Source: Owenia fusiformis
Lineage: Eukaryota; Annelida; Polychaeta; Sabellida; Oweniidae
Assembly: GCA_903813345.2 (NCBI GenBank)
Contig: CAIIXF020000012.1
Span: 4,443,318 to 4,507,317 of the forward strand
Direction of reading: 5' to 3'
DNA length: 64,000 bases
In this document: piece by piece, positions 21,397 through 30,300 of the stretch
Position numbering within the stretch: position 1 is the first letter of the stretch
Layout of the letters: every line of letters starts with the position of its first letter
The notes under the pieces: generated by a model
The model's input: the letters and a program-made list of their open reading frames with translations, nothing else
Told to the model about the DNA's origin: nothing
Database searches by the model: none
Position numbers and translations under genes: made by a program

Positions 21397-24300
21397 ATGA
21401 AGATGTGGAGTCTAAAGATAGTCACGTTGATTGCAGTGTTGGGCTTGGTTCAATGTTCAAAGCTGTATAACCTGGGCGGTCGACAGATGCATATTACATG
21501 CTACAATGAACAAACAAATCATGTCAGGGCTTTCACCGTCAATAACGGAGCTTGGGTGCAAGTATGTTTATAATCCTCTGAAATGCCTTGGTCACATTTG
21601 CTCCGATTTTCACTACAATATTGAGCAAAACGTTTAATCGGCCGAGCGCCGGCCGATGGATCGGGACAAATGTGACTTACACCCCAGTCACATTTGTCGT
21701 ACGGAGGCCGTGTGTCGACCGCAGATCGATTAAATCGGTGTATCTATGCGGCGAGCGTAAGAAAACTACGCTCGCCTTGCGGCCTCCTTACGGCGTATCC
21801 AGTTTTTTTACAGGCCGCAGGGTCGCCGTAGAGATTATAACTCGGAGTTATAATATTTGTTCCTTTCCAGGCCTCCTAGACTTCCAACAACGCGAACATC
21901 AGTTCTGATACCGCGAACTACGTTCCTTGCACTCGAACCACGAATCTCATATCGCGAACGTGAAATTTTATGTCGCGAACCACCATTTCCTTGTTTCCGA
22001 ACATATTTCTTGTATCGCGCACAGAGATCCGTAACCGCGAACCACGCATCTGATTGAAAAAAATTCCGTAATTTTGTTCGTATTATTACGCATAAGTAAA
22101 ATTCCAACGAGGTGTTTTCATATGGAATTCGGAAGAAACATTTTCCCAGTTTTTCATGCATGTGAATGAATATCCAATCATTGACGATAAATGTATTTTA
22201 TTGCGTTTGAGTCACGTAGTACGAATTAGCAAGAAAATGATTTCTATTTGGTCGTTTAAAATAGAACGGTAATTGTGAATGCAGTATTACTGAGTGAACG
22301 GTGTATGTATTCGTGAATAAGATCACTTCGGCTCTAAGCGGCGAGATAAACGGACGTTAGTTACTACCAACTCATAATCGTCACCTTGAAAATAATACGG
22401 CCATGCAGGCACAAGCTTACTGAAGGAATTCTCGGAAACAAATCCCAACAAACGGAAAATAAAATGAAGCTAAGAATAATCACTCTAAACAGAAAAACTT
22501 TCTATCAATTCAAAGAAAAACAACATAATTTGGAAGAAAAATGGGCACAAACAACAGTACATAGACAACAAAGGAATTGACGAGAAAGCGGACCATGCAT
22601 TTGCAGAACAAACGGCCATTTGTATGAGGCATGCATAGTTTAAAAAAAAAAGGGTAAGGAACTTTTGTCAGATTTAAATTGAAGTAATCATTTAAGAAGA
22701 CCAGAGTGGGACTGGTTGTGGTACTTTGGCAGGATATCAAAAGCTAATTTATGAAGGTTACAAATAAATATAACAAATACAAAGAAACCTATATTATCAT
22801 ATCAATATCTGTAAGTTGAATAATCTTATTCAATGAATATAAGCGATTATTTTGTGTAATCTATAATCTTTAAAGTTAAAAATTTGATAACAATAGATAC
22901 CAATCAGTCAGTGAAAGTTTCAGGCAAGATGACCGCACAAACAATGATGGGGAAAATGAAGCAGACAAAGAAGCTCATCGATGGTTCAACAAAAGGGATT
23001 TAATACGGCTGCGGAATTATAGAAAGACAATCTGCTAAGTGGGTATTACAAGAACCCAAACTGCACAATTAGGGGCACATCAAAGACTAAAAAGATAAGT
23101 ACTAATATACCTGAAAAGGAATTTGTTAACTGTTGGGGATAGTCTTGAAGAACATGCTAGTGTTTGGCTTTAAATAGAAGAAAATGATAAATGTAAGTTT
23201 AACATGTATATATGTTAAGATTTTGAAAAGGAAAAACATATCAAGTAATTTTAAGAAGAATATATATGCTTGATGTAAAATGTAAAAATTTTCTTAAAGG
23301 ATGTAAAACGTAGTACCAATAATAGGAAACGGTAAAGCATGAACGATCTAATGAGGGGATTGTAATATACAGCTGTACATGATAAGGGGGATCGGAGTAC
23401 CCATAATAAAGGGGGATTACCTATGAGAAAGCAATCGTAGTGTCACATAGATGGGGTATTGTAGTACCCATGATTAGAAAAGATTTAGTATCAATAATCA
23501 AGGGTATTGTAGTAAGCACAAAAGTAACAGTTTAGCTCTCAATATAATGGCAAGTTAGAATAAATGAATGACCACTGAGAGTGGTACCTTGATAAAGGTG
23601 AGTGTGGTAATATTCATACTACACGAAACAGTCAAAACATGATAATATAGTACTCATATATTTTTATTGAAAGAAATATTTACTATTAGTTAAATGAGGA
23701 AGCGAAATATGAATGTTAAGTACAAGGCTGAACTGAGACAGTAAATCAAAATGAAATAATGAAAGATTGATAGTGTTATTCTCCTTCAAATTATATATTA
23801 TACGTTTAAGGATACTATATGAAGGATGTCATTGGTAAAATTGACTTGCCGTTTGCACAGAGCAAAGTGGAAATGATGCACTGGATTGTTAAAAATGTTC
23901 AGTACACAACAGTGATAATATGTATTTTGTCTTTGTTATCAAATGACCTTGAATATATCAAAATGCTATAATGGTTTTCAGAAAATAGCAATAGTAGTTT
24001 GTTAAGATTATATAAATGATAACAGCTATCGGCAATGTTGACAGGTTGATGACAAAATGTTTATCTATAGATATCAAAGAATCTCAAAGTTGGGACTGCT
24101 ACATGTATATTTAACTGTCTAAAATGCAGAAACAGAACAGTTTTGGTTTCAAAATTTGACAAAACTGAACGGCAAGGTCGTATCAGTCTCCAAGAAAAAG
24201 GCATTTGGTATCTTCAGATGCTAGAGATTCAGGTTGACGGTTATTCAGTGACATGTGAATCAAAAATTTGTTTCAAACATTGACAGAAACTTATGAAAAT

Positions 24301-27300
24301 GAGTGGATCGAACTTAAAAAGGGTGTTCTGATGGTGGTTAGAATCATTTCTGCACTTGTTTCAGAGGAGAGTCTCTAAAATGGTTTACGGATAACACATA
24401 TTTTGAAATTATTGTGAATATAGGTATCCCAAAACCTCATTTGCAAAGTCTAGCTGCTAGAAAATTGGTAGATTACGAGGACTGCGGAATCAGTTTTTTT
24501 TGACAATTTAAATAAGATACAGTCAGTTATGTTAGTCTCAGATCACACTGTTGATCGTTTTGAAAATCAAAACAAAAATAAATTAATTTTGTCGACGCAT
24601 TCTCATAGAACCGGGGCGCAGATTTAAGCAGAGTATTTTCAGGAGTAAAACTTAAAAAAATGCAGGCAAATACATGCATTGGACAAAAAGTTCAGGTACC
24701 GGTTGATAGTTTCAAAAATGGCAATCAGCTATTTCTTGGCCAAGTATACACAATGATAGAACATTTCGTTCCTTTATCAAACAAGTCCTTGAATACAATG
24801 GTTTATTACTTAACCGGGATTACATATGGAGTCAACATTTCAAGAAACCCTTTTCAGAGGTACGAATTATTTGCATTGAAAATATGGTGTAAGTGAAAGA
24901 CTGAAATTTTACAAAATGTTAAATTGACAATGAAGAGATGTGAAAATAAAATAAAATATTAGAGGCTGTTTAGATTGTAGAAAAAGGCAAATCTTAAGGG
25001 AATTGCAGTGACCAAGATAAATGGAACTATAGTACTCATGAAAAGTGAAATTTATAAAACATAATGATAAAGAAAATTTGAAGCGCCCAAGATAGGGGGA
25101 ATAGTACTAAACATGATAAGGGAAATTGTAGTATAAAATGACCAGGGGAATTATAGTACCCATGATAAGTACATTTGTAGTACCCACGATACAGGGAATT
25201 GTAATACCCATGATAAGGGGAATTGTAATACCCATGATAAAGGGAATTGTAGTACCCATGATAAAGGGAATTATATTTTCATGATGAGGGGAATTGTAGT
25301 ACCTATGATGAGGGGAATTGCAGTACACATGATAAGGAGAATTGTAGTATATTCATGATAAGTGGATTTATAGTACCTATGATAAGGAGAATTATAGAAC
25401 TCAATATGAAGGGAATTGTAGAACCCATAAAGGTAACTTTTACTGCCCATGATAAAAGGGGAACTGTAGTATTCGAGAATTGTAATACCCATGATAAGGG
25501 GAATAATAAAGCAAATGATAAGGGGAATTGTAGTACCAAAGATAAGGGAATTGTAGCACCAAAGATAAGGGGAATTGTAGTACCCAAGATAAGGGGAATT
25601 TTATAGTACCCATGATAAGATTGTAGTACTCATGATAAAGGGAATTGTAGTACCTTAGATAAGGGGAATTGTAGTACCCGAGATGAGGGGAATTGTAGTA
25701 CCCGAGATGAGGGGAATTGTAGTACCCGAGATGAGGGGAATTGTAGTACCCGAGATGAGGGGAATTGCAGTACCCGAGATGAGGGGAATTATAGTACCCG
25801 AGATGAGGGGAATTGTAGTACCCGAGATGAGGTGAATTGTAGTACCCGAGATGAGGGGAATTGTAGTACCCGAGATGAGGGGAATTGTAGTACCCGAGAT
25901 GAGGGGAATTGTAGTACCTGTAATAAGGAAAAGTGAAGCTTTCACTATAAGCAAATTGTATTACTCGTCATAGTGGTAAGTTGTGATTTCACAAGTGAAA
26001 ATCTAGAACACATGCATAAGGAATTGAAGAAAATGGTAAGCAGTTTTATGAGTAATACACGAAATAACAATAATTACATAAGAAAAGTATTTTCATTTCA
26101 TAAGAAACATTTATAGGTTATATACTTTTGCCGGGGAGAGTTTAAGGTACAAAAGGTCGGAAGGAGACATGTCTGTGAAAATCACTGGAGTAATGATACT
26201 GTTTTCTTTTTTATTGTAGAAAATAAGGTAACATAGCAGATATCTGGATATGGCGCATTGTTAAATGGCATATATTGTATTTGGCCTATACATGTTTTGT
26301 TGCCTTTGTAATAAAATGAGATTGAGTATATATGTTTGAAAAGTACATATACTGGTTTTCAGTGGCTACCAAATCATCCAATGAAAAACGACAACTTGAG
26401 CATCCAGATTTAAGACAGCTTAAAGAGAAGCTTCCGGGTGTGATTTAGGCAGCAAAGCCACAAACACAATAGGGTCATACGGCAGTGCTTTCGACAGATG
26501 GTCAATGTGGGTAAACAATTGCCCCGAAGTATGTATTTTGTCAGCTAAGACATGATTTTGCAAATCATTGACATTAGACAGTAGTGGAATCAGCCTAACG
26601 AACACTAGAGAAACCGACTTCTAATAAACACACATTTACAACAAATATAATACAGTTTTTATCAGATCACATGTTAATTCAGATTTGTTTAAAGTTTACA
26701 TTTATCATAGCTCTTAGTTTAGCAAGGTTTTCTCAGATTTGATGATATTTGTCATATTAGAAATTCAGACTGTCGTTTTATGACACTAATATTTGTATCA
26801 ATATAAGATATTTAAAAACAGTATATAAGAAGGTAGCAAGTGCGTCATTGTAGCAACATGCTCAGATTTTTGTCCAGTAACTTTATAATATAAGATGGTT
26901 TAAAAGAAGCAAACATAAGCAATGAAAATACGTTTTTAGAGCAATTTTATATCACAAATCACAAAATCATATGTGTTAAAGTTTAGTGATAAAGCTATAA
27001 GCTACACAAGGTGCAGATAATTTATTGTAAAGGCATTTAAGTCATGTGGTGACATGATACGTTGTTTAGAACGCAATATTTAAGACCCCGCGGTGCAACA
27101 ATGGCCGCAAAGAAAGGCAGTTCAGATAGGAGACTGTTAAAGATGGTTTTATCCAGCACACGTTGAAAAAAGGATTACGTGTTTCAAAGAATTTAGGATT
27201 ATAATTATAAAGATATTTTAAGAATCTTACTCAACAGTTTATGTAAATGTCTGTGCTTAATAATCAATATAAATTTTCGCTTACTGACTTTAACACTTCA

Positions 27301-30300
27301 CGCAGCCGCAGAGCCACATGCTAGTAAATGTTATGTTTCTTAAGTGTAAGTTAGAATAGAAATGTATTTTATTGCGTTTGAGTCACGTAGTACGAATTAG
27401 CAAGAAAATGATTTCTATTTGGTCGTTTAAAATAGAACGGTAATTGTGAATGCAGTATTACTGAGTGAACGGTGTATGTATTCGTGAATAAGATCACTTC
27501 GGCTCTAAGCGGCGAGATAAACTAAGTAAATGTCTTTAAAATGTAATGAAAATTTTTCGGACAAACCTTTTTCCTTTAACCTCAATTGTTGAGGATTTCA
27601 AAGATTTTTAGCATCATGTTCTCAACAGAATAATAATGGGCATTAATGAGTGTGTGATGCTAAAGATAGAAAAGGTTTTACAGGTGGTCGGAAATTTTTT
27701 AATTTTGAAAATGAGATTTGTTATTACTACATTATCGAGTAAGCTAATCAATTGTCCATTATTAACATTTTTGTATATTTTCCAGCGGCGACGCAGCCGC
27801 AGAGCCACATTTTGGCAACCAGCATGTACATACAATAACATTATTGTACAAATAATACACTCGGTTTTTCTGCAGCACGCAGCCGCAGAGCCACATGCTA
27901 GTAAATGTTATGTTTCTTAAGTGTAAGTTAGAATAGAACAGTATTTTCAAGTTCTAGGAAACACAAAATATTGGGACTACCTTGCAATCACGCGCATTGA
28001 GATTTTCCAAAACCTGACTTTTGAGTAACAACACGTATGTCCAAATTAGTGACAGCCTTTTCCAATGTTGTCTATTTGAGCCGATGATTGCATCATAATA
28101 AAGAAATGAGTTACCCTATGTACAATATTCCTGATTTTATAGAATATTTGATGTGCTATATCTGTAGCTCCAGCTACTGATAATTTGAAGATGCTACCCT
28201 TTGCCTTTAAAACGTTTTAGATGAAAACTTAACTTAAATGTTGCCCCCCCCCCCCCCATTACGGCTTGTGGGATTAACTGTTTACATACAGGATAATAAC
28301 AATCTATCATCCTGATAAAGATTTTAACACTTGGTTGACTAAATCGTAATTTTAGGGTAAGGGCTAAGAATACTTTATCTGTCTAATCTTTGACCGTCTG
28401 AGATAAATGTGTGTTGACGAGTCCTGTACTTAATTAATCTTGGTTTTAAAACCGAAGCTTTCATTGTGGGCTGTTTTGTCCCACCCATGGGCCATTTTGC
28501 CATACTCTCAACATTTTTTTCGAACACTGAAAAATCACAGAAAATGTGAAATATAATCCCTTCATAAGATGGAACATCAAAGTTCGCGATGATTGACAGA
28601 TTAGAAAAACCTCTGGACGGATCAAATTATTATGAGGGCCGTTTTGCCCCATGTTCCCAAAAGATTCCTGACTTCAGCAACCAGGACGATATCTGACCCA
28701 AGACGTGTGGAGCGCTAAAATGTCGGACCCATTTTTTCTGGGCCCATCTCAGAGGTCGCATGATGCTAAACAGGAAAAGACAAAACAGGAAGTAATAAAA
28801 CCATGCTTAATTTTAAACATTTTTTGAACCAAGATATGAGAGTTCTGTTTTGACCTCCAGTCAGTTTAACTAGTTCCACATACCATTTACATGACAAGAA
28901 TCACACTGACCATGGTCAGAATGACCCTAACCATGATGAAATAACTTTTTTAGCCCTCTGAAAAGGTCACTGTAAATAGCTTTAAGTAGGAGCATAGGAA
29001 AGGTCAATGAACAGAATATTTTGAATTTTTCAGAAAATGTGCCCAATATATTGCTTTAAATGATACAATCTTTAAAATTTTAGAAACTTGTCTGAAAAAA
29101 GTGGCGGTCATTTAAAGGAAAAAAGATAGCTTTTTAATTCAGTTGTTTTCATTTTTTCTTTTTCAACGAATGATATCAAATTTCCCGAGATTGTATCACT
29201 AAGAGCAATATATTAGGCACATTTTCTGAAAAATGCAAGGGATTCTGTTCTAAGCTCCTACTTTTATCTATTTTTCAGTCACAAATTTTAGAGGGCTGAA
29301 AAAGTATTTTCATCATGTCTAGATCATTCTGACCATGGTCATTGTGATCCTGGTCATGTAAATGGTATGTGGAACTAGTTAAACTGACTGGAGGTCAAAA
29401 CAGAACTCTCATATCTTTGTTCAAAAAATGTTTGAAATCCAGCATGGTTTTGTCACTTCCTGTTTTGTCATTTCCTGTTAACTACCATGGCACCTAAAAC
29501 CAGTGTAAGAAAAAAGATTAACTATACAAAAACGGTAGATCTACCTAAAATCAGCTGAGTCTCTCTGCTATCCGTTGCATATTGGTATATACATGTAACT
29601 TGGAATCCCAAACACCCGGATGTATTATGTACAAATTGTTCGCGGTTACGGATCTCTGTGCGCGGTACAAGAAATATGTTCGGAAACAAGGAAATGGTGG
29701 TGCGCGACATAAGATTTCACGTTCGCGATATGAGATTCGTGGTTCGAGTGCAAGGAATGAATTTCGCGGTATCAGAACTGATGTTCGCGTTGTTGGAAGT
29801 CTAGGAGGCCTGATTTCTGAGGTCCCCGTAGAAATCAACTGGCTAAACAAGATTGAATCATTATTTGTCAATTTTTCACGATCACTTTTCATTTGATATT
29901 ACATCCTAGCACTATGAATAACATTTATAAATTGTCCCGATGTAAATAAAATGAAAAAGTATTATTTATCAACAGAAATTTAAAATTCACCGTGCGGCTG
30001 CCGTGGGAAATGTGACTGCAAAAGTATGAGAGCGCAGAAATTCCACGACGAGCGTAGAAATGTTACTGGCCGCAGAAATGATAGACCGCAAGGTCGCCGT
30101 AGGAAATGTGACTTGGGTATTAGGCATTAAAACCGTACTCCCTATAATGCATTGGTCACATTTGCTCCGATTTTCTCTACAGTCGGCCGATTGAATATAT
30201 TATTTTGAACAAAATACTCATACTTAGATACTTAAATAGTGGGCGTGCTTTCCTCGTAGGCAGAAGCTGGTGTTAATTGCCCGTATACAACATGGGGTTG

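Follow-up and report, generated by a model that had tools for sequence, protein, structure and literature searches.

Tn7 leaves a 5-bp target-site duplication (TSD) and has tips reading TGT...ACA. RAG/Transib elements also leave 5-bp TSDs and have 5'-CA...TG-3' tips, reading CAC..., while hAT elements have short terminal inverted repeats (TIRs) and CAG tips, usually CAGGG or CAGTG. Repeats within long TIRs are known from foldback elements, and multi-site ends are likewise a known kind. For Tn7-like elements, the account given in PMC8649781 describes TnsB arrays of three and four sites, with 22-bp inverted repeats and a median first-site offset of 12 bp over 18 elements. According to the description of Hermes in PMC10368747, each end holds several short subterminal sites for the BED domain of the transposase. 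The hAT5 group, as presented in PMC12730594, is a hAT group defined by 5-bp TSDs, and the D. willistoni Galileo elements described in PMC4168063 have TSDs of 7-8 bp and, in one copy, ~140-bp tandem repeats.

The array described here was noticed in a window of 64,000 nucleotides of Owenia fusiformis DNA (by 'the window' we mean this whole stretch). The original prediction, made from the letters of the window, reported eight CGCGAAC-like heptamers phased at two helical turns and mirrored in the opposite arm of an element. The left-arm heptamers do start at 21891, 21912, 21932, 21953, 21974, 21996, 22016 and 22036, in steps of 21, 20, 21, 21, 22, 20 and 20 bp, and the right arm (29638-29789), read from its own tip, has identical steps. 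The 175-bp left arm has five exact copies of CGCGAAC, versus 0.008 expected under letter shuffling (none of 5000 shuffles reaches five); with up to two mismatches it has ten, versus 2.35 expected (one of 5000 shuffles reaches ten). These starts, steps and shuffle counts confirm the array in both arms. Its phasing near two helical turns also holds, with a mean step of 20.7 bp and a coherence R of 0.92 at 10.5 bp (0.95 at 10.36 bp). The predicted extent was right in counting eight sites per arm, but the arm itself is longer, running from the element tip (21868 or 29812) to the last base of heptamer 8. A coding repeat, already excluded in the original prediction, can be rejected: the step lengths are not all multiples of three, and a comparison of 15 copies contains no frame over 106 codons. 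The parts of the window copy are as follows.

21868..29812, no strand: whole window copy of the non-autonomous element, 7945 bp, made of the ~2.1-kb element plus a nested insertion (from the inverted TIRs and comparison with paired copies)
21863..21867, plus strand: left target-site duplication remnant CTTTC, pairing with ATTTC with one mismatch
21868..22042, plus strand: left TIR, 175 bp, eight WTCY-N5-heptamer units, ending at the last base of site 8
21882..21897, plus strand: left site 1, TTCC-AACAA-CGCGAAC
21903..21918, plus strand: left site 2, TTCT-GATAC-CGCGAAC
21923..21938, plus strand: left site 3, TTCC-TTGCA-CTCGAAC
21944..21959, plus strand: left site 4, ATCT-CATAT-CGCGAAC
21965..21980, plus strand: left site 5, ATTT-TATGT-CGCGAAC
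21987..22002, plus strand: left site 6, TTCC-TTGTT-TCCGAAC
22007..22022, plus strand: left site 7, TTCT-TGTAT-CGCGCAC
22027..22042, plus strand: left site 8, ATCC-GTAAC-CGCGAAC
22043..22190, plus strand: left subterminal region, common to other copies
22191..27938, no strand: nested insertion, foreign to the element (junctions against uninterrupted copies)
27939..29637, plus strand: remaining element interior, common to other copies, without a long coding frame
29638..29798, minus strand: right sites 8 to 1, units at 29638-29653, 29658-29673, 29678-29693, 29700-29715, 29721-29736, 29742-29757, 29762-29777 and 29783-29798
29638..29812, minus strand: right TIR, 175 bp, the same eight units, six differences from the left TIR
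29813..29817, plus strand: right target-site duplication remnant ATTTC, pairing with CTTTC

The two arms of the window copy (21868-22042 and 29638-29812) are 97% complementary over 175 bp, and the copy is an ordinary element split between 22190 and 27939 by an insertion of ~5.7 kb. No TSD was seen at either junction of this insertion. Its ends resemble split direct repeats: segment A1 (22191-22351) is found again as A2 at 27362-27522, segment B1 (27299-27361) again as B2 at 27876-27938, and the B1-A2 joint is present. We take the insertion to resemble tyrosine-recombinase retroelements of the PAT/Ngaro kind, a likeness against which stand the ~350 bp separating A2 from B2 and the longest listed frames, which derive from its tandem repeat. 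A 24-bp tandem repeat array lies within the insertion at 25102-25986.

The spacers between heptamers, originally described as unrelated, are not so. A WTCY tetramer stands exactly 9 bp before all eight heptamers in the consensuses of two subfamilies of the element, termed old and new (in the window, left site 5 has ATTT in this place, one letter off). The unit is therefore bipartite and 16 bp long, WTCY-N5-CGCGAAC, with its two putative half-sites about one turn apart. The 9-bp offset was chosen after being noticed, and our control was motif-free, taking the best four columns at any offset over the seven spacers. Anchored on the downstream heptamer, these columns hold 6.15 and 6.03 bits in the old and new consensuses, values that none of 3000 within-spacer shuffles reaches; anchored on the upstream heptamer the signal is weaker (4.18 and 4.14 bits, 8 of 3000 shuffles each). 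Variation in step (20, 21 or 22 bp) is confined to the linkers between units, of 5, 4, 5, 5, 6, 4 and 4 bp, and both consensuses retain all eight sites and identical steps.

Across the genome (498 Mb in 525 contigs), at least 393 termini match the outer 22 bases with no more than two mismatches, as against none for a reversed control. From 100 termini listed among the 393 we took 27 facing pairs (L009-L035), a 28th region (L036) having no facing pair, and we fetched 20 divergent short elements and a number of longer copies as further loci. The tip CAGGCCTCCTAG is present at both ends in 27 of the 27 paired copies, which were selected on both tips matching the search pattern; the element tips are CAGG...CCTG, the tip reading CAGGCCTCC. 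A perfect 5-bp TSD flanks 41 of the 51 loci scored; two others have one mismatch, seven have two or more and one has no recognisable end, and all ten of these imperfect loci except L023 belong to the divergent short set. The duplications are AT-rich with no fixed word. The window copy is outside the 51, and flanks read by eye gave AAATA/AAATA for L126, TGTTT/TGTTT for a 27-kb pair on C4 and TGATT/TGGTT for L125. Because a TSD of constant length accompanies tips of the form CAGG...CCTG, the family is a cut-and-paste (class II) DNA transposon, non-autonomous. Fifteen of the 27 pairs measure 1.7-2.4 kb, nine are longer and three are under 0.5 kb, the divergent short elements being about 0.4-0.75 kb; the 15-copy comparison gives an element of about 2.1 kb with no gene-like frame.

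Some loci depart from this plan. L023, L033 and L081:182-399 are near-palindromic elements of ~200 bp built from two facing arms; by eye, L033 has about two sites on one side and six on the other, and it has a perfect 5-bp TSD, as does L081 (GGGTC). Solitary ends (L063-L068, L070, L071, L074, L076 and L080) keep the tip, with the first base changed in L074, and break off or degenerate inside the array at varying points. L063/L064 and L065/L066 have common flanks and look like duplicated loci. At the inner break of L065, L068, L070 and L071, no TSD was seen by eye. Cut-and-paste transposition alone does not explain the broken solitary ends.

An array repeated at both ends of a transposon is best read, as the original prediction had it, as an array of protein sites. 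We consider it probable that each end carries eight phased bipartite transposase sites, lying within the TIRs of a non-autonomous cut-and-paste transposon. A transposase made elsewhere would bind the eight 16-bp sites of each end. Since about one helical turn would separate the WTCY and CGCGAAC half-sites, and successive sites follow at intervals of about two turns, eight protomers would line one face of the DNA. The bound protomers would pair the ends, cut at the CAGG tip beside site 1 and insert the element with a 5-bp stagger.

The original prediction called for the autonomous copy and its DNA-binding protein; among the copies read, we found neither an autonomous copy nor a transposase. The long copies L057 (7.6 kb), L058 (9.2 kb), L059 (9.0 kb) and L062 (4.6 kb), like that of the window, proved to be the ~2.1-kb element interrupted by other DNA, and so did the ~17-kb copy L060/L061, in which the left tip is not recognised. 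Frames named by eye are reverse-transcriptase-like in L057 and L129 and gag-like in L060/L061. The 27-kb copy on C4 (C4:3187932-3214997), of which only the ends were read, has standard ends and its TGTTT duplication is perfect. The interiors of L028 (5.2 kb), L125 (5.0 kb) and L126 (4.6 kb) are largely unlike those of other copies, and no transposase was recognised in them. L028, which has intact tips and TSD, contains a frame with four C2H2 zinc-finger matches (L028:2417-3055) that may be a captured piece of a host gene; L125, from a third subfamily, contains on its minus strand (L125:2311-3024) a 238-codon frame with zinc-knuckle-like and coiled-coil-like stretches, identified by eye. Neither frame is recognisable as a transposase. 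As far as they were read, the solitary ends L063-L066 are not autonomous copies either; by eye, the 9-kb stretches on the inner side of L065 and L063 contain host-like frames.

Could a hAT transposase move the family? Our profile searches of the genome covered hAT (PF05699) and RAG1 (PF12940). The RAG1 profile had no match in the genome, its controls being silent too, and the hAT profile had 138, the mark of many hAT remnants. With these remnants, a 5-bp TSD and CAG...CTG tips, the family might be hAT5 and be moved by a hAT5 transposase, which would be compatible with an array of transposase sites. However, the TIR was found at none of 20 hAT loci, taken from the 138 matches and searched for ~1.5 kb on the downstream side of the dimerisation domain; no PF05699 match lies near any terminus listed (the closest, by eye, at about 21 kb); and the tip is CAGGCC, not CAGGG or CAGTG. 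We therefore regard a hAT5 origin as conceivable but on the doubtful side. The 19-base tip had no match among viral contigs, and our literature search returned no paper that pairs CAGGCCTCC with 'terminal inverted repeat'. In the papers surveyed, titles and abstract openings name no such element, and a relative catalogued in Repbase or Dfam is possible.

The original prediction expected heptamers to be more conserved than spacers, and named equally conserved spacers as the outcome that would count against it. We assessed this on 58 new arms and on 41 old ones, the latter from L029 and its relatives. In the old arms, agreement is 0.938 for WTCY, 0.860 for N5, 0.922 for linkers and 0.926 for non-CpG heptamer positions, falling to 0.792 at the CpG positions of the heptamers, which are prone to decay. 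Linkers thus equal heptamers among these 41 divergent arms, and at the level of consensus changes the figures are 0/33 and 2/56, respectively. When the heptamer mask is rotated along the arm, an equally large difference is obtained at 51 of 161 positions for old arms and 14 of 161 for new ones; for a mask of heptamer plus WTCY, these values become 2/161 and 11/161. Taken alone, heptamers do not clearly exceed the rest of the arm in conservation, and with respect to the linkers the result is the one named as adverse to heptamers standing alone. Old, decayed copies have insertions and deletions in every class, WTCY and N5 included, so that the rigid step holds for the consensus and not for each decayed copy.

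Linkers as conserved as heptamers, eight units with both submotifs in the same order, and the occurrence of one-sided and truncated arms would all suit a decayed ~21-bp tandem repeat within long inverted repeats of the foldback type, with no binding role, in which the units are alike by shared descent. We hold this to be unlikely: the 9-bp step from WTCY to heptamer is kept in every consensus unit while the linker varies from 4 to 6 bp, the end of the array coincides with the end of arm homology, and differences between subfamilies fall in N5 and spare the linkers (1/33 across arms, 0/33 between consensuses). The linkers also count against our preferred reading of transposase sites, as they would be free to vary if only the 16-bp unit were read and they have hardly changed.

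Change between subfamilies is concentrated in N5, the internal part of the unit; the heptamer alone, taken as the site in the original prediction, is too narrow a description of a 16-bp bipartite motif. We aligned 140 arms and kept 136 (L050_a, L051_a, L057_b and L114_b were dropped for gaps). Diagnostic positions, defined over the 136 arms by a second letter at 10% or more and no CpG transition, number 18 of 40 in N5, 3/56 in heptamers, 2/32 in WTCY, 1/33 in linkers and 0/14 in the tip (hypergeometric P for the N5 excess 4e-9, with positions that are not independent). The old and new subfamilies were defined by how they were found and not by N5; the third comprises seven arms (both of L125, both of L126, L106, L075 and L129), and its N5 excess is partly a matter of choice, its first members having been spotted by their N5 letters. 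The three consensuses differ at 24 of 175 positions: 21/40 in N5, 2/56 in heptamers, 1/32 in WTCY, 0/33 in linkers and 0/14 in the tip. Between old and new, the differences are 17 in N5, two in heptamers, one in WTCY and none in linkers or tip; the new left-arm consensus has one linker change, at position 157. N5 is identical in all three consensuses at sites 1 and 3. Counted by blocks, 6 of 8 N5 segments changed versus 0 of 7 linkers (P = 0.007), and as adjacent N5 changes are probably not independent, P values at the level of positions are optimistic.

The left subterminal region just inside site 8 serves as a local reference. Of the 124 positions compared there, 12 distinguish the old consensus from the new (built from 21 and 31 rows, respectively, which were sorted by six diagnostic letters, four of them in N5), against 17/40 in N5 (P = 1.2e-5) and 3/135 in the rest of the TIR (P = 0.015). 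N5 has changed faster, and the frame of the TIR more slowly, than this flank, which may itself be constrained. Among the 12 subterminal substitutions, ten fall into five pairs with a separation of exactly 3 bp (at offsets 3/6, 32/35, 52/55, 64/67 and 75/78 after site 8), a pairing that may be due to chance.

Is N5 an unread spacer of fixed length, or a segment that is read and whose preferred sequence has switched? The first alternative, in which N5 would evolve neutrally while the rest of the TIR is constrained, is compatible with transposase sites and fits a segment that measures 5 bp in the consensuses with a varying sequence. Against it, change in N5 was roughly fourfold that in the possibly constrained subterminal region, and N5 of sites 1 and 3 is invariant. 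The two bases before the heptamer bear on both alternatives: they are CT in 4 of 8 sites of the old subfamily (P 0.011) and AC in 4 of 8 of the third (P 0.012), which speaks against an unread spacer, whereas the new subfamily, with 3 of 8 (P 0.23), has no such bases common to its sites. This modest sharing is suggestive, though not proof, of an array-wide change of preference. We lean slightly towards a segment that is read, an unread spacer being a serious possibility that falls a little short of our preference.

The same changes are found in both arms. Using sequence inside site 8, we assigned 23 old arms to the left, 15 to the right and three to neither side, and 29, 28 and one, respectively, of the new arms. 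Within either subfamily, 3 of the 175 positions separate left from right arms, whereas arms of the same side differ between old and new at 21 (left) and 23 (right) positions, 20 changes being common to both arms. In old and new alike, left-right homology extends to the final base of site 8 and no further. Given the few left-right differences within a subfamily, the shared changes and the end of homology at site 8, the likeness of the arms, limited to the array, has been maintained during the divergence of the subfamilies. Its source may be selection or conversion between arms, and the data do not discriminate between the two. A change confined to one submotif of most sites and common to both arms could also look like escape from a repressor, if a host protein (a zinc-finger silencer or chromatin factor) read the sites in place of a transposase and the N5 changes freed the element from it. 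That heptamer and WTCY stay conserved between subfamilies speaks rather for a factor on which the element depends, and none of our data suggest a host factor; a host reader seems to us quite improbable.

If the array loads a transposase, as we favour, the three subfamilies would provide a naturally occurring set of related end arrays, in which a 5-bp submotif accounts for almost all differences between the sites. With such a set one could ask how specificity shifts jointly in a transposase and in sixteen copies of its site, which is hard to address with single-site ends. We put forward only tentatively, and think somewhat unlikely, the stronger proposal of a eukaryotic lineage whose symmetric end arrays are Tn7-like and had most of the eight sites of both arms re-tuned together, at one submotif, as a new subfamily emerged. 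The array would then record a switch in the DNA specificity of the transposase, and subfamilies would no longer mobilise each other.

How do these ends compare with known systems? Titles and abstract openings of the papers surveyed hold no account of symmetric arrays made up of eight phased bipartite units in which change is concentrated in one submotif. RAG/Transib elements have the same 5-bp TSD and 5'-CA...TG-3' tips, but their tip is CAC... and here it is CAGGCCTCC, which does not place the family among them. Foldback and Galileo elements (P superfamily) likewise have long TIRs with internal repetition; membership in P/Galileo was rejected on the TSD, 7-8 bp there versus 5 bp here, and the repeats of ~140 bp contrast with eight units of ~21 bp per intact arm. 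The hAT5 group has 5-bp TSDs and CAG tips in common with the family, but hAT TIRs are short versus 175 bp here, and no hAT transposase is linked to these ends. Hermes may be likened to them more loosely through its subterminal BED-domain sites: several short sites per end, here putative transposase sites, are found in both, but the Hermes sites, which are AAGT motifs, are not the same at both ends, in contrast to symmetric 175-bp TIRs with phased 16-bp units. The closest analogy is with Tn7-like elements. These share arrays of ~20-bp transposase sites (predicted ones here) at each end, a first site set back from the tip and a 5-bp TSD; they differ in being bacterial, with three and four sites, whereas the Owenia element is eukaryotic, with symmetric ends of eight sites each and no transposase seen. 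Tips of CAGG...CCTG, not TGT...ACA, exclude membership in the Tn7-like elements themselves. The eight-site phased layout would nevertheless most likely work like the TnsB arrays of Tn7, and if it does load a transposase, multi-site, phased ends, so far best known from Tn7-type elements, would gain a eukaryotic example.
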